From Holdemania sp. Marseille-P2844 (GTDB lineage: Bacteria > Bacillota_I > Bacilli_A > Erysipelotrichales > Erysipelotrichaceae), in NCBI RefSeq assembly GCF_900120005.1, contig NZ_LT635452.1, forward strand, positions 329,668 through 393,667: a stretch of 64,000 bases of DNA. The letters are read 5' to 3'. The notes under the pieces were generated by a model. It was not told the origin of the DNA, did not search any database, and saw only the letters and a program-made list of their open reading frames with translations. The translations under genes and the position numbers were made by a program. Shown here piece by piece: positions 42,938-50,052 of this stretch. The first letter of the stretch is position 1; the number at the start of each line of letters is the position of its first letter.

Positions 42938-44335
42938 ATGGCGTTAAAGAAGAATGATGTGTTTACAGGAGTAGCTGTCGACTATACGTTTGATGGACTG
43001 GGGGTAGTTCGTCATGAAGGATTGTGTTTCTTCGTGAAGGATTTATTGAAGGGGGAAAGTGCGGAGATCGGGGTGACGGCCGTGAAGAAAAACGTGGGTT
43101 ATGGCCGGGTGATCCGGCGCTTATCCGAGAGTCCGCAGCGCGTTGAGCCGCGTTGCCCCGTTGCGCGTCAGTGCGGAGGCTGTCAGCTGCAGATAATGGG
43201 GGCTGAGCTGCAGGCAGAGTTTAAGCGCCATCGGGTTGCGGATTGTTTCCAGCGGATCGGACATCTGGACGTGGAGGTTCAGCCGGTGTTGTCGATGGAA
43301 TTTCCCTGGAACTATCGTAATAAGGTGCAGGTGCCGGTGGGGGTCAACCGGGATGGAAAACTGGTCTGCGGCTATTATCGTAGTCATTCGCATGATATTG
43401 TGGATTTTGACGAATGCTGCCTGCACAGCGAACTGGAGAATCAGATTTTGAGATCGCTGCGGTCCTGGATTGAGGAAGCGGGCGATCCGGCGCAGCTGCG
43501 GCATTTGTTGATCAAGCATGCGTTTAAGACAGGGCAGGTCATGGTTGTGTTAATCGCGAAATCGGAAAGACTGAAAGGGAAAGACGAACTGATAGAGCGT
43601 TTGACTGTGGCGTATCCGCAGATTCGCAGCATCATCCTGAATGTGAACGAGCGTGAGGATAATGTGATTCTGGGGGATCGGGAGATCGTGTTGTGGGGAT
43701 CGGCTTCGATTGAGGAAGAGTTGTTGGGGCTGCGATTCCAGATTTCGGCGAAGTCGTTTTATCAGATTAATCCGGTCCAGACGGAAGTGTTGTATACGAA
43801 GGCGATCGAGCTGGCTGGTTTAACCGGGGAGGAAACGGTGATCGACGTGTATTGCGGCACAGGCACGATTGGATTGAGTGCGGCCCGGAAGGCGAAGCGG
43901 GTGATCGGCATCGAGATTGTTCCTTCGGCGGTGGAGGATGCGAAGAGGAACGCGGTCCGCAACGGGATCGCCAACGCGGAGTTTATCTGCGGCGATGCGG
44001 GAGTGTGCACGGCGCAGTTGTTGGAGCGGAGGATTCAGCCGGATGTGGCGATCGTAGACCCGCCGCGCAAGGGACTGGACGGGGCGACGATTGATTCGTT
44101 GGTCAGGATGAATCCGAAGCGGATTGTGTATGTTTCGTGCGATCCGGCGACCTTGGCACGGGATTGCGCGGTGTTGAATGAGCGGGGGTATGGCGTGGAG
44201 GTTGTGCAGCCGGTGGATATGTTTCCGCAGACGACGCATGTGGAGACTGTGGCTTTGTTGGAGAGGAAAGGCTGTAAAACAAAGGGTTTCGGGGATTGGA
44301 GGCGGATATGTGGATGTGCTTTTGTGGTTGGTTAA
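42938..44335 (+). CDS. rlmD: 23S rRNA (uracil-5-)-methyltransferase, RumA/RlmD-like
   Basis: A 465-residue RNA m5U methyltransferase with N-terminal TRAM domain (1-60) and 4Fe-4S ligands CPVARQCGGC (about 68-77). The SAM motif is DVYCGTGTIGLSAA (about 303-316), and DPPRKGLD and the catalytic Cys in VSCDPATLARD follow. Firmicute homologues act as RlmCD on two positions. After VETVALLERKG the frame continues with about 20 residues (RRICGCAFVVG) not typical of the family. The AT-rich island begins here. Start 42938 follows GGGGAACGGAG. Confidence 0.9.
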   Translation: MALKKNDVFTGVAVDYTFDGLGVVRHEGLCFFVKDLLKGESAEIGVTAVKKNVGYGRVIRRLSESPQRVEPRCPVARQCGGCQLQIMGAELQAEFKRHRVADCFQRIGHLDVEVQPVLSMEFPWNYRNKVQVPVGVNRDGKLVCGYYRSHSHDIVDFDECCLHSELENQILRSLRSWIEEAGDPAQLRHLLIKHAFKTGQVMVVLIAKSERLKGKDELIERLTVAYPQIRSIILNVNEREDNVILGDREIVLWGSASIEEELLGLRFQISAKSFYQINPVQTEVLYTKAIELAGLTGEETVIDVYCGTGTIGLSAARKAKRVIGIEIVPSAVEDAKRNAVRNGIANAEFICGDAGVCTAQLLERRIQPDVAIVDPPRKGLDGATIDSLVRMNPKRIVYVSCDPATLARDCAVLNERGYGVEVVQPVDMFPQTTHVETVALLERKGCKTKGFGDWRRICGCAFVVG

Positions 44336-44459
44336 GATGAAATATGTTTTCGGTTACCGTGGTGGGGTAAAGGAAATGAACGTTTTAGCAAAAGACTTGG
44401 AAGTTGGATTTTTATATTCAAATGTAAATTAAAGAAAATGTACAGTTATGGAGAAAAAG

Positions 44460-46382
44460 ATGATGTTAACAAATAATCAAATCGGAAATGTAAGATCAGC
44501 ATTTGAAAGTATTCTGAGAGCAGACTATATCAATATTAATGAAATCACCCAATTGAAAGATTTGGATAGTTATTATATTGATATGTTTGGAAATCTTAGT
44601 TTGTTATTGCAACGCCAAGATAATTATGCTGTAGGAAGGAGAGGAACGGGGAAAACTGCGTTATTATTGAGGGGATACTACGAATGTTTAAAAACAATAT
44701 CCTCTAAGGTGAAAGGGGAGAGTGAGTATTTCGTTGATAAAAAAATATTACCAATATATATTGATCTTAGTAATTGCAATGAGATATTTAGTGATAATTC
44801 AGAATTAGTGTCTATTGAAATTCACATGGTACGTCAAATAATTCAATCTTTAAAGGCGCAATTAAGGTTAATGTTTGATGAGAAATTTCTCAATAAATTT
44901 AGAAAAGAAAACCAAGCGTTTGATGATCTTACGTTCATTGAAGATGCCTTATTAAATGGATTAGCTATTCAAAATTCAAGGAAATTGGATATTAATGATG
45001 AATATAAGAATAAAGTAGGTGAAAATTTTCAAGGTAAATTAAATCTATCTGGGGCTGAAATTAATGCAAATAGTTCGAATGAAATCGAAAATTCAAGTTC
45101 TATGACTTACAAACAAATAAGAGGTCTAGATATACAAAGTTTCTTGAATAAAATAAATGAAATACGTAACAAAGCAGGTATTGATGATATATATGTTTTT
45201 TTAGATGAGTTTTCGGACTTGAATGATACAGAACAAAGAATATTATCTGTACTAATTAAAAAGTTCTTAGGTTCTAAGGTCAATATGTTTTTTAAAATTG
45301 GTGTTATTACTGACAGATTTTCTTTTGGTGATAAAATAAGAATTGGACGAGATATATATCCGATACCTTTAGATCTGAATGAATTTGTTGAACGATTTGG
45401 TGGATTGACACCAACGCTAAAACGTATGCAATTATATATGGAACAGTTGATTGAAAAAAGGCTGTCTCTTTTTTGTCAAGGCTTATCATTTAATGATGTA
45501 TTTGAAGGGTCAAAAGATTCAGTTACTGAGAGGATATCAACAGAGGCTATGGGAGTTCCAAGGAGTATTGGGTTAATACTTCAGAATGCTTGGATTCAAA
45601 CGACAGCATCAAAGAATATCAAGAAAATAGGGATGCAGGAATTAAATTATGGAATTCGAGCAACCAGGAAAACTTATTTCAAACAATTTTCTGGCGCAAT
45701 AAAAACTCAATTACTTTCAGGATTTTACATGGATATGTGGAGTGATATACTACAAAAAGCACTAGCTGAAAAACAAAAAAATTCAAGTAGACCTGCAAGT
45801 CATATTTTAATTGATCCAGTTCGTAAGGATTATATGAATATTTTTTGTGAATATTTTTTGACTCATTATTTAGAAGAAGGACGTTCATCTAAATATGGTG
45901 GTAATTACTCGTTATATTGTATTGATTATGATATATGTCAAGAAAATTCAATCAAGTTTGCATCTGATAAGGATGAGTATACATCAGTCAGATTTATCTA
46001 TGATTCTGTTTTAAGCGAGTATGATGGTTATTTTATAAAAGACAAATTAAAAAGCTATAAATGTGAAACTTGTGGAAGAATTTATGAAGAAAATGAAGTG
46101 AGTCAAGCTAGAGTAAAGAGATGCTTTGATGACGACACAGTTTTAACTGAAATAATCCATAAAGATATTCCTGTTACAAAAGGAAATTATGTGGAAGTTG
46201 AGATAAAAATCTTAGGTTACATATCAGAGTTAGATTATGAACATGCGGAAAATGCTCGTCAAATATCAGATGCAGTTGGATGCAATTGGCAAAAAGTATC
46301 TAATTGGGGGTCAAAAGTTCTGGCAAAAAAAGGAATGATCCGGATTAGACAAGAAAGTAAAAATTTATATTATGGTATTTGA
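44460..46382 (+). CDS. Uncharacterised P-loop ATPase with zinc motif and C-terminal winged helix
   Basis: A 640-residue protein, AT-rich unlike its flanks. Walker A VGRRGTGKTALLL lies near residues 58-70 and Walker B IYVFLDEFSDL near 244-254. A sensor-like ITDRFSFGD follows. This order fits an ORC/Cdc6 or STAND-type AAA ATPase. The C-terminal half has KCETCGRIY (CxxC) with another Cys in RVKRCFDDD, a zinc motif. Residues about 595-640 (ARQISDAVGCNWQKVSNWGS) look like a helix-turn-helix. ATP-dependent DNA or protein sensing, perhaps in defence, is only an inference. GGAG then ATG 44460 fits; ATG 44448 lacks a site. Stands alone on the island. Confidence 0.75.
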   Translation: MMLTNNQIGNVRSAFESILRADYININEITQLKDLDSYYIDMFGNLSLLLQRQDNYAVGRRGTGKTALLLRGYYECLKTISSKVKGESEYFVDKKILPIYIDLSNCNEIFSDNSELVSIEIHMVRQIIQSLKAQLRLMFDEKFLNKFRKENQAFDDLTFIEDALLNGLAIQNSRKLDINDEYKNKVGENFQGKLNLSGAEINANSSNEIENSSSMTYKQIRGLDIQSFLNKINEIRNKAGIDDIYVFLDEFSDLNDTEQRILSVLIKKFLGSKVNMFFKIGVITDRFSFGDKIRIGRDIYPIPLDLNEFVERFGGLTPTLKRMQLYMEQLIEKRLSLFCQGLSFNDVFEGSKDSVTERISTEAMGVPRSIGLILQNAWIQTTASKNIKKIGMQELNYGIRATRKTYFKQFSGAIKTQLLSGFYMDMWSDILQKALAEKQKNSSRPASHILIDPVRKDYMNIFCEYFLTHYLEEGRSSKYGGNYSLYCIDYDICQENSIKFASDKDEYTSVRFIYDSVLSEYDGYFIKDKLKSYKCETCGRIYEENEVSQARVKRCFDDDTVLTEIIHKDIPVTKGNYVEVEIKILGYISELDYEHAENARQISDAVGCNWQKVSNWGSKVLAKKGMIRIRQESKNLYYGI

Positions 46383-46554
46383 AATTATTGGTCAATAGTA
46401 AGAGTAAGTGTAGGTGAAGAGGAAAATGAGTTACGGGGCAGAGTAAAAGGGGAAACAGAGGAAAGCAAAATAAAAAAAGAACCAGATAATGAGGTAAAAG
46501 TGTTAAAATAACTGTAGAAACCAGATAAAAAAGGGTACAAGAAAAGATATTTAG

Positions 46555-48050
46555 CGAAATGCAATTTATTTCGTTGAGTAAATGCAGGTGCTAAATTCGT
46601 TCTTAGGCTGGCTTGTCAATGGATCTCCCTGTGTCTATTCTTTATTTGTTGAACAAACCCCGGAGGGAAAGGCAAACGTTTTCAGGAGCGATGGAAACAA
46701 GCCCTAATTTATCGAGCGTTTCGTTCCCGAAGAGAAGACTGAATAACTCAAGAGGCGAGTGATCATTCAGTCTTTTTCTTTTATAAGAATTGATATGGCT
46801 TGAAATGAGGTTCAATTCATCTTGTGTTAACTGATCGAAAGATGATCCTTTAGGATAGAATCTGCGCAACATTTCATGGTTATTCTCGCAAGTCCCTTTT
46901 TGATAGGAAGCAGCGGGATCACAGTAGAGTAAACGAGACCTGGATTGATGGAAGGCATCGTTTTCAATCGCCGTCGGATTGGAAAATTCGGAGCCATTAT
47001 CCGTCAGGATGACTTCAAATATTTTCTTGAATAACTCAGGACCGAATCGTTGTTCATAAAGTTGATCCATCTGTTGAATTGTAGCTTGAGAGGTATGGTG
47101 GTCGGCCAGGAAGAATAATTGAAGATTGCAGGACTTGAAGAGAAACGTGAGAATCACCTTACCGCCTTTAATCCCTTCAACAGTATCCATCTCTACAACG
47201 GAGACATCCGGATGAGCTTGAACGAAGTCCAGGAAGTCTGCATAAGTTCGGTGAATCCGACATTGACTATCGACCTTATGTTCTTTCCGCCCTGATTTTC
47301 TAGGCTTTAAGCGGCACTTTCGAGGCAAATCTAAATTTTTGATACCGGGAAGCAGGTTGGCGTCAATGAGATTATAAATGGTTTTCTCATGACAAGGGAG
47401 AATATCAGCTTTAACCAGACAAGCATGATGTACGGATTGTTTATTCTCTTTAATAAGCGGAGTAAGCTCCCGCTGAATCAAAGCCAATTCAGCTTCGGTT
47501 AAATTAAATCCAGAACGGGTTTCAACGAGCCTCTGCCGATATTCCTGGTGGGCTTCTGCTGCCTTATAATCACGTTGTTCCAGGGAGCAGCGCTGACGCT
47601 GCCGACAGCCATTACAAACATAAGGAGGACGAGAGAGAGAGAAGGGCAGCACTCTTTTTCATAATCATAACAAACCCGGAAACAATGACCACAAAAACGA
47701 CAATTCCCCTTTTGAAAATGGCACTGAGGCTGACAGACAAATTTTAGCCGGCATTCAAAGCGATGGAGGCAATCGTTCATCATGCGAGACTGAGGGTAAG
47801 AAGAACGATCGCGAATCAGCAGATGATTTCGAATCTCGCGGGAGAGAGTGGTAGAACTCTTGGAAATCAAACGAGCAATTGTGTTGAAAGAAGAACCCTG
47901 ATTCAATTCGGATTGAATTGTAATCCGATCTTGCAAAGTTAAGTGACTCATAATGAGGACTCCTATCTGTACAGAGAGATACAAGATAACTATAACTTAT
48001 TTGCACGAGTAAATGCAGTCCGCGTCTTTGCAAAAGTAAATGCAATTTCT
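46555..48050 (-). mobile_element. IS30-family insertion sequence
   Basis: A 1.5-kb element with a broken transposase. Both ends carry a similar terminal repeat: GAAATGCAATTTATTTCG on the left and, inverted, GAAATTGCATTTACTTT on the right. The centre of the match is shifted by one base. TTTAG occurs directly outside both ends (46550-46554 and 48051-48055) and may be a target duplication. A second direct repeat GAGTAAATGCAG lies inside each end (46575-46586 and 48007-48018). Confidence 0.7.
46642..47951 (-). pseudogene. IS30-family transposase, frameshifted
   Basis: Two overlapping minus-strand frames make one transposase. The first (47951 down) begins MSHLTLQDRITIQSELNQGS and has the IS30 helix-turn-helix (FNTIARLISKSSTTLSREI) and a Cys-rich region. 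The second carries the integrase-core acidic residues: VVEMDTVEG, VILTDNGSEFSN, and a Glu in GTCENNHEMLRRFYPKG. The join is in a (GA)6 tract at 47631-47642. Losing one GA unit would restore a single frame (CCPSLSRPPYVCNGC). Whether slippage lets it be expressed is unknown. Confidence 0.85.
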
Positions 48051-48189
48051 TTTAGTCTTAAGGCTGCGTTTACTTTTTCAATTCACAACACTCTATCTTT
48101 AAGATACTTGCTTCAAATATCCAAGCAGTTTACTAAATTTCTATGTTATGATTGATATAGGTTTATGAATTAGATTTGAGGGATGGAAG

Positions 48190-50052
48190 ATGGACGCAAG
48201 ACAGTACCTGAAAAAATATTTTGGCTATGAATCTTTCCGAGAAGGTCAGGAGAAAATCATTAATGCAATTCTTGCGGGGCGCGATGCATTGGCAATCATG
48301 CCGACAGGGGCAGGGAAATCAATCTGCTATCAAATTCCTGCTGTGATGTTGCCTGGGATTACATTGGTAATTTCACCGCTGATATCACTGATGATGGATC
48401 AGGTCAAGGCTTTAAATGAGGCTGGAATTCGCGCCGCTTTTATTAATTCATCCCTGAGCGAAGCTCAATTTGCTAAAGCTTTACTGTTTGCTGAAAAAGG
48501 AGTCTATAAGATTATCTATGTTGCTCCGGAACGATTAGAAAGTCACGATTTTATTCATTTTGCCCGTCAAGCTGATATTTCCATGATTACCGTTGACGAA
48601 GCTCACTGCATTTCTCAATGGGGTCAAGATTTTAGACCAAGTTATTTGAAAATCATCGGATTTGTCAAAAGTTTGCCAAAACGCCCGATTGTCAGTGCAT
48701 TTACGGCAACCGCAACGCAAGAAGTAAAAGTAGATATACTCTGTGTTTTAAATCTGATTGAACCGGAGGTGGTCGTGACTGGATTTGATCGGAAAAACTT
48801 ATTTTATAGTGTAGAAAAAAGAAAAGATAAAGATCGTTTTGTTATAGAGTATGTTCAAAAACATGCGAAGGAAAGCGGAATTATCTATTGCGCGACTCGC
48901 AAAAACGTAGATAACCTTTTTATGTTGCTTTCCAAACAAGGTGTTTCTGTCACCCGCTATCACGCCGGATTAGACAAAGAGGAAAGAAAAAGAAATCAGG
49001 ATGATTTTATCTATGACCGAACTCCGGTCATTGTGGCAACGAATGCTTTTGGGATGGGCATTGATAAATCGAACGTTCGGTATGTGATTCATTATAATAT
49101 GCCTCAAAGCATGGAAAGTTATTATCAAGAAGCAGGCCGTGCAGGTCGGGATGGCGAGACTTCACAATGCATCCTATTATTTTCAGCCCAGGATATCATG
49201 ATCAACAAGTTCCTGCTGGAAAATAAAGATTTTTCTGATCTTTCTTCTGAGGAAATTGAGATTATAAAACAACGGGATGCCAGGCGTCTTAAAATTATGG
49301 AAAATTATTGCAGAACCAATGAATGTCTGAGAAATACCATTTTAGATTATTTTGGGGAAAAAGTAATAAAACCTTGCGATAACTGCGGTAATTGCATGAA
49401 AGACTATAAAAAAATCGATATGACTGAAGAAGCGAAACAGGTTATCAATTGCGTTGCAGAAACAAGAGGCCGGTACGGATTAACGATAGTATTGGGAACC
49501 TTAATCGGTGCAAATCGTGCAAGACTCAAAGAGGTAGGTACTAATCGTTACAAAACCTATGGAGCATTAAAGGAATACTCTGTGTCACAGATCCGAGAGC
49601 TCATCTATGAACTTATTAATCAGAGATATTTGGTGCAGACAGAGGACCAATATGGAGTTTTGAAGCTTGGCGATATCACGATGCTGCAAGATGAGAATAC
49701 CCATGTGATTTTAAAAGTCACTGAAGAAAAAACACAGGAAGCTGGAAAAATAAAGAGTAAGCAAAGAAATACAGACAAGCTTACTTCCGCTGGCTATGTT
49801 TTATTTGATGCTTTGCGTAAACTTCGGACAGATATTGCGAGGGAGGAAGGATTACCGCCATATATCATTTTCAATGATAAGACATTGATTGAAATGTGTG
49901 TTAGATTGCCGCTTGATGAAGAGGCCATGTTAGATATCGCAGGCGTCGGCGTTAATAAACTACAAAAATATGGACAACGATTTTTAGCGGTCATTGTGGA
50001 CTTTAAAAAGACGCATCAAGAGGATAAAACCTCAATTCAAGATAATGTTTAA
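48190..50052 (+). CDS. recQ: ATP-dependent DNA helicase RecQ
   Basis: A 620-residue 3'-5' helicase for recombination repair. It has Walker A MPTGAGKS (about 37-44), DEAH motif TVDEAHCISQWGQDFR, motif VI in YYQEAGRAGRDG, and RecQ zinc ligands CRTNECLRN...CDNCGNC (about 377-407). A winged-helix RQC domain and HRDC domain (about 530-605) complete it. Composition is more AT-rich than the genes on the far side of 50270. It lies next to an IS30 copy and the orphan ATPase. Confidence 0.93.
   Translation: MDARQYLKKYFGYESFREGQEKIINAILAGRDALAIMPTGAGKSICYQIPAVMLPGITLVISPLISLMMDQVKALNEAGIRAAFINSSLSEAQFAKALLFAEKGVYKIIYVAPERLESHDFIHFARQADISMITVDEAHCISQWGQDFRPSYLKIIGFVKSLPKRPIVSAFTATATQEVKVDILCVLNLIEPEVVVTGFDRKNLFYSVEKRKDKDRFVIEYVQKHAKESGIIYCATRKNVDNLFMLLSKQGVSVTRYHAGLDKEERKRNQDDFIYDRTPVIVATNAFGMGIDKSNVRYVIHYNMPQSMESYYQEAGRAGRDGETSQCILLFSAQDIMINKFLLENKDFSDLSSEEIEIIKQRDARRLKIMENYCRTNECLRNTILDYFGEKVIKPCDNCGNCMKDYKKIDMTEEAKQVINCVAETRGRYGLTIVLGTLIGANRARLKEVGTNRYKTYGALKEYSVSQIRELIYELINQRYLVQTEDQYGVLKLGDITMLQDENTHVILKVTEEKTQEAGKIKSKQRNTDKLTSAGYVLFDALRKLRTDIAREEGLPPYIIFNDKTLIEMCVRLPLDEEAMLDIAGVGVNKLQKYGQRFLAVIVDFKKTHQEDKTSIQDNV

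Follow-up and report, generated by a model that had tools for sequence, protein, structure and literature searches.

The ATPase gene and its junction

The window, by which we mean the whole stretch of 64,000 nucleotides of Holdemania sp. Marseille-P2844 DNA that was analysed, carries a large ATPase gene between rlmD and an IS30-family element, beyond which lies recQ. The features of this locus are:

42.9-44.3 kb: rlmD, the upstream flank of the ATPase gene
44450..44453, forward strand: likely Shine-Dalgarno sequence GGAG, read from the sequence, 6 nt upstream of the ATG at 44460
44460..46382, forward strand: coding sequence for an AAA+ ATPase of the ORC/Cdc6 clade, with 640 aa if translated from the likely start (the longest frame opens at 44448) and at least twelve close homologues
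46642-47984, reverse strand: IS30-family transposase pieces in two overlapping frames, 46642-47652 and 47499-47984
48190-50052: recQ, after the IS30 element

The longest open frame, 44448-46382 on the forward strand, holds 644 codons. The ATG at 44460, from which the original prediction had started the gene, is favoured over 44448 and is probably the true start, because the GGAG precedes it at the distance of a ribosome-binding site and the homologues begin at the matching place. Given 644 open codons, the set of motifs described below and relatives of about 50% identity in three phyla, the frame is real and chance can be excluded. The gene also forms the AT-rich island reported earlier, with a GC content of about 30% against about 52% in the surrounding window DNA.

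In a sister species whose flanks are about 96% identical, rlmD and recQ are both present, and nothing like window positions 44255-48115 is found at either locus; moreover, the sequence after rlmD (from about 44255) differs in all three congeners compared. The ATPase gene and the IS30 element hence fill a species-specific junction, which cut into the 3' end of rlmD, since the window rlmD has a different C-terminal end. The gene may have come in on its own or with a rearrangement of the region. The IS30 transposase, being split over two overlapping frames, is probably frameshifted. As an operon partner, recQ was considered and rejected, since it is a native gene with 96% identity to that of the sister species (G105) and is separated from the ATPase gene by the IS30 element. 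Although native, recQ (compared between window 48190-50052 and L041, 4493 onward) has a GC content of 39%, and several stops have reduced it to a broken pseudogene in the congener G079. The window holds no defence neighbour, the gene standing alone beside rlmD and the IS30 element, which counts against a role in defence; the term orphan, applied to it at the outset, is correct for the window gene and for most of its relatives.

Domain architecture and predicted fold

The protein is built from an ATPase core and a long C-terminal part (residue numbers refer to the 644-aa frame from 44448). Its parts, all on the forward strand, are:

44634..44657: Walker A GRRGTGKT, residues 63-70 (alignments)
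44958..45122: variable linker, probably disordered, residues 171-225 (model pLDDT below 50; alignment)
45192..45209: Walker B YVFLDE, residues 249-254 (alignments)
45309..45317: putative sensor-1 region T-D-R, residues 288-290 (alignments)
45552..45563: sensor-2-like G-V-P-R, residues 369-372 (alignments)
45717..45923: predicted first winged helix, in the ORC-type position after the AAA+ lid, residues 424-492 (AlphaFold, and a structural match to 2qen over residues 17-501)
46062..46133: zinc-type motif C-x2-C-x16-C-x2-D, residues 539-562 (alignment)
46188..46367: predicted C-terminal winged helix-turn-helix (HTH), residues 581-640 (homologues and AlphaFold, with low confidence after residue 622)

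The Walker motifs are intact, as the original prediction had held: GRRGTGKT and VFLDE are present, and none of the 25 aligned relatives, which come from two families, deviates at the Walker A, at D253-E254 or at R372. For the Walker A this conservation is partly circular, that motif having been the search key for most of the aligned relatives; the copy from genome G858, found by protein search alone, carries it too. R290 is near-invariant across the same 25 relatives, and both the G and the R of G-V-P-R (the latter being R372) are invariant in all 25 sequences. The Cys motif of the earlier reading takes the form C539-x2-C542-x16-C559-x2-D/C562, its three Cys invariant in 10 of 10 aligned relatives and its fourth position D in seven and C in three.

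A first AlphaFold model from 10 sequences was too weak (pLDDT 58); once the sister family described below had been added, a model from 25 sequences reached pLDDT 74 and pTM 0.70. In it the predicted AAA+ core runs up to about residue 420 and is followed by a winged helix at 424-492; further on come a zinc region rich in beta structure at 535-570 and, at the C-terminus, an HTH of three helices. The C-terminal HTH suspected previously coincides with the modelled helices 581-594, 597-609 and 614-624, the end of this domain being poorly modelled and of low confidence. The helices and strands at 424-492, directly after the AAA+ lid, form a winged helix that was absent from the original prediction. 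The ORC-type winged helix, the zinc knuckle and the C-terminal winged HTH are three likely DNA-contact modules.

Structural comparison with VIA-align 2 gave PABY2304 (2qen) as the top match (Z 16.6, rmsd 4.5, 314 aligned, residues 17-501), together with Sso1545 (2fna, Z 15.8), Cdc6/Orc1 on origin DNA (2qby, Z 15.4, rmsd 4.3, 258 aligned), BrxC (9zdx, Z 15.0), TnsC on DNA (Z about 15) and Orc2. The top set spans Z 14.7-16.6, with rmsd mostly 4-5, and Foldseek searches agree with it. The matches to 2qen and 1w5t extend through the winged helix at 424-492; those listed are to AAA+ proteins only and barely cover the region after residue 500. Overall, the Walker A and B motifs and the sensor-2 arginine, together with the ORC-like fold and post-lid winged helix of the model, place the window protein among the ORC/Cdc6-clade AAA+ ATPases. 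In scans against Pfam, NCBIfam and PADLOC no effector domain, whether of nuclease, TIR or other type, was recognised, nor any repeat family that could serve as a sensor; an effector activity may reside in an unrecognised fold. Of the label ORC/STAND-like given earlier, the ORC half stands, on the structure comparison and on Pfam PF24389 in close relatives, and the STAND half is too loose, with neither an effector nor a repeat sensor found.

Relatives and distribution

A hand-made DNA pattern for GRRGTGKT, run over 84,980 species genomes, matched 95 stretches, and among the 80 of these that were listed at least ten encode true relatives. Two further relatives from Flavobacteriaceae came from a protein search, which brings the close relatives to at least twelve. 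They are found in Shewanella, Gilliamella and Modicisalibacter (Gammaproteobacteria), in three Clostridia, and in Flavobacterium, Winogradskyella, Pustulibacterium, Maribacter and two other flavobacteria. Eleven of them are 48-58% identical to the window protein, the Modicisalibacter copy 34%, and the module layout is identical in at least twelve close relatives across Bacteroidota, Gammaproteobacteria and Clostridia. In one flavobacterial relative (L200, 6083-9212) an IS3-type insertion lies after about residue 120.

The distribution is sparse. The Holdemania genome is the sole carrier in its family (245 genomes searched) and in its phylum (392 genomes searched); the family of the Flavobacterium copy yielded carriers in 5 of 397 genomes (one a cousin, two of the five already known), and that of the Lachnospiraceae copy in 3 of 397 (two of them cousins). 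Automatic peptide-pattern scans with the window protein returned no relatives from the genome or viral collections, nor did tblastn at 1e-5 from plasmids or phages; in viral contigs the Walker A pattern picked up unrelated ATPases apart from a single member of the sister family (P0003 type), a Sll1717 profile search of 295 genomes gave mostly P-loop background, and E. coli genomes searched with the Gilliamella gene as DNA query held no relative. Phylogenetically, the window protein groups with the Shewanella and flavobacterial copies (85/90 support), apart from the three Clostridia. The gene is AT-rich in every host, its GC content being 27-40% in the relatives irrespective of the host.

Beyond the close relatives lie distant cousins with the same order of parts (P0002, L201, L202 and L203; 21-26% identity) and a sister family (P0003 type) that lacks the tail. 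P0002 (WP_181241462.1), encoded on a 6-kb mobilizable Enterobacter plasmid, and its cousins resemble the window protein in having an ATPase, a CxxC..CxxC motif and a MarR-like winged HTH in the same order; they differ in their identity of 21-25%, their separate clade and a full CxxC pair at the second zinc half. P0002 passes Pfam MarR_2 where the window protein has its C-terminal winged HTH. The start of its gene (L073, 2830-4986) overlaps the end of the rep gene, and the plasmid also has CcdAB and Mob genes. The filamentous Vibrio phage KSF1 (L076, 6523-6813) encodes the first 100 or so residues of a P0002-like protein, 43% identical, where the annotation has short hypothetical ORFs only. On a Burkholderia glumae plasmid (L074, 4418-11599), a P0003 gene lies about 1.2 kb after a Gabija-looking pair of an AAA ATPase and a UvrD helicase, and also near gamma-mobile-trio genes.

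Carriage in integron cassettes

In Shewanella sairae the gene makes up a typical integron cassette on its own, flanked by an upstream attC and by the attC that belongs to it. An IntI gene (TIGR02249, 384 bits against a cutoff of 265) lies about 0.7 kb away on the opposite strand. The upstream attC ends in GGCG directly followed by TTAGAAATT, 51 nt before the ATG, and the gene's own attC, which starts at the stop codon, opens with AATTTCTAAC and continues with a hairpin and GTTGAAC. The cassette start GTTAGAAATT is the exact complement of the attC start AATTTCTAAC over 10 nt, a score reached by none of 300 shuffles. With IntI nearby, attC core sites and a complementary boundary, the Shewanella relative is an integron cassette.

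The Maribacter and Winogradskyella copies also have an exact 10-nt complementary boundary (1 of 300 shuffles each), with no full-length IntI adjoining. Four flavobacterial copies (L181, L182, L184 and L200) have GTTAGGC in common, 22-24 nt before the ATG, and in two of them, Flavobacterium L181 and the IS-disrupted L200, it stands at 23-24 nt with no matching 3' end; this common sequence points to a single ancestral cassette, also for the copies that no longer have the 3' attC. For the window copy no cassette boundaries were found, the best score being 7/10, which 154 of 300 shuffles reached. Two group II intron-type reverse-transcriptase genes lie close to the putative Maribacter cassette (L184, 185-3915), and integron attC sites are known targets of such introns. 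The reverse-transcriptase matches that PADLOC reported among the Maribacter neighbours were set aside as group II intron maturases, judging from the appearance of their sequences.

Overall, the gene moves horizontally between distant bacteria, in one relative as an integron cassette and probably so in others, as follows from its absence from the sister loci, its sparse distribution, its placement in the tree, a GC content independent of the host and its carriage in an integron. It is established that integron cassettes harbour small defence systems (PMC12409362): about 10% of those of V. cholerae are anti-phage (16/179), and 9 of 57 tested in V. parahaemolyticus act in defence (both in the same review).

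Neighbours of the relatives

Inspection of the homologues' neighbourhoods, proposed along with the original prediction, covered about a dozen loci and found defence-type genes at some and none at several. In the clostridial D16-51, a CAP12-type TIR gene (Pfam PF10137, 36.9 bits, cutoff 24.7) lies 114 bp upstream, and a very large gene that is conjugative-element-like by appearance only is also present. In a Lachnospiraceae genome (L187), a MAD3-like AAA_21 ATPase, matched to mad3 at 2.4e-36 in a pooled PADLOC scan of neighbours, and a 204-aa gene are directly upstream, and all three genes are AT-rich within a GC-rich genome. Modicisalibacter has a DUF3800 gene downstream, Gilliamella a downstream gene that appears RadC-like, and Flavobacterium an adjacent 313-aa gene without family assignment; the remaining copies are alone or beside unknown genes. 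Same-strand neighbours 114 to 150 bp away recur at several loci, and the partner genes vary from locus to locus and are absent in several. A constant place near core genes, named with the original prediction as a refuting finding, is not seen for the homologues. Across about a dozen loci this pattern fits defence or mobile-element cargo and argues against a fixed housekeeping operon.

Proposed function and alternatives

The balance tips slightly towards a stand-alone, horizontally mobile, DNA-binding AAA+ ATPase that acts against phage or other foreign DNA, a reading suggested by the integron cassettes, the defence-type neighbours, the AT-richness and the patchy distribution taken together. 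In such a system, the ATPase would load or oligomerise on DNA in an ATP-dependent manner, as in ORC/Cdc6, TnsC and BrxC, while the winged HTH and zinc module would pick the DNA site or structure. The complex could then assemble on invading DNA, be it on replication intermediates, origins or a sequence, and would block its replication or expression, an outcome proposed because no nuclease or NADase domain is seen. At some clostridial loci, the ATPase might serve as a sensor beside an effector gene, namely the CAP12-type TIR or the MAD3-like ATPase. A bolder and distinctly tentative version would be a novel immunity conferred by one gene, whose product, an Orc1/Cdc6-like ATPase carrying a zinc module and a pair of winged helices but neither a nuclease nor a NAD-degrading domain, would load onto invading DNA and so arrest it, and which would spread between phyla as a lone integron cassette.

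The ORC/Cdc6 fold would also suit a replication, partition or copy-control factor of mobile elements, that is, an Orc1/Cdc6-like initiator or regulator aiding the replication or persistence of its carrier, and the P0002 overlap with a replication-initiation gene on the Enterobacter plasmid and the P0002-type fragment in the filamentous phage KSF1 point the same way. However, the close relatives sit in integron cassettes or at chromosomal sites without adjoining replication genes, no iteron array is seen around the window gene, and the Enterobacter plasmid is already served by its own Rep, CcdAB and Mob genes; such a role is therefore unlikely. Just as unlikely is a STAND-like transcription regulator, in which an ATPase switch would let the C-terminal winged HTH activate stress or host genes. 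STAND regulators such as MalT do combine a P-loop ATPase with a C-terminal winged HTH in their general layout, which the window protein shares, and R290 and GVPR resemble, by eye, the STAND sensor and GxP motifs; on the other hand, no sensor repeats were recognised, the neighbours include no constant target operon, and a regulator would hardly be carried across phyla as a lone cassette without its target genes.

The same-strand neighbours at 114 to 150 bp in D16-51, Lachnospiraceae, Modicisalibacter and Flavobacterium raise the alternative that the protein acts as sensor or adaptor in various multi-gene defence systems, the adjacent gene supplying the effector (TIR, MAD3-like ATPase, DUF3800 or others). 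Yet the neighbour is different at each locus, no partner accompanies the window copy or the Shewanella cassette, and the remaining copies of cassette type adjoin only unknown or DUF4269 genes, which makes this a shade less probable than the two preceding roles. Very improbable is a TnsC/MuB-like target-selection ATPase of a transposon, which the structural similarity to DNA-bound TnsC and the IS30 element beside the window gene could bring to mind: that similarity is common to ORC-clade ATPases generally, no transposase partner recurs among the relatives and IS30 is not known to use a TnsC-type ATPase.

Comparison with known systems

The window protein is best placed in the broad ORC-CDC6-like superfamily, where Sll1717 and DS41 are distant relatives of it. 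The original prediction could not assign it to a described family, which is correct at the family level: no characterised family matches strongly, and while the superfamily is already known, neither Pfam, NCBIfam, PHROGs nor PADLOC offers a model specific to the four-module family, which genome annotation and defence finders consequently miss. The open-access literature text searched contained no description of such a four-module family. Alignment A3 has ten rows, the close relatives numbering at least twelve in all, and could be used as the basis for a profile.

Pfam gave no match for the window protein itself, PF24389 (ORC-CDC6-like) included; PADLOC returned nothing meaningful for it beyond noise at E 0.18, and sequence searches of the PDB nothing useful. 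Of five close relatives scanned one by one, four do match PF24389, scoring 41-48 bits where the gathering cutoff is 27, and 8 of 10 relatives match it at E<=0.1. This profile has the AAA+ core of the close relatives in common, and differs in that the match covers about positions 8-324 of 571, leaving out the zinc motif and the second winged HTH. Structure prediction, suggested earlier as a way to decide between ORC1/Cdc6, STAND and Sll1717, gave the ORC/Cdc6-clade fold, and the Sll1717 cutoff was failed. The sole NCBIfam match of the window protein is NF047389 ATPase_Sll1717 (E 4.7e-6), at 26 bits against a cutoff of 75; this similarity, like that to DS41, lies far below the curated cutoff and reflects the ATPase portion only. 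The AAA+ core is in common with Sll1717, and in a true member, Leptolyngbya P0004 (254.7 bits), the match ends without zinc motif or second winged HTH. The N-terminus of P0004 is deoxyribosyltransferase/TIR-like (PF05014, 24.4 bits, below the cutoff of 28.8), and its gene adjoins mobF on a plasmid (L075, 4152-6509). For NF053860, the DS41_1 anti-phage protein, the window protein has no match at E<=1 and four of ten relatives show weak similarity (best E 2.2e-6), far below the curated cutoff of 370 bits; the model, at 448 positions, is shorter than the window-protein family. DS-41, from DefensePredictor, has been validated against phage (PMC13092281).

Among known structures, the archaeal ATPases PABY2304 and Sso1545 are the best matches, across both the AAA+ domain and the winged helix; they are proteins of about 350 aa without the zinc motif and the C-terminal winged HTH, and their identity is 12-14%. 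ORC/Cdc6-clade ATPases are central to BREX, where BrxC likewise joins such an ATPase to a winged helix that follows it (PMC12839542). BrxC differs in its 1200-1300 aa and in working with PglZ, BrxB and a methyltransferase; by eye and in partial family scans, no PglZ, methyltransferase or other BREX genes were recognised in the neighbourhoods of the family described here. Should this family prove protective, it would amount to a compact defence of one gene whose basis is the fold of replication initiators instead of a nuclease or toxin, and would link the BREX-type ORC ATPases to minimal, highly mobile systems.
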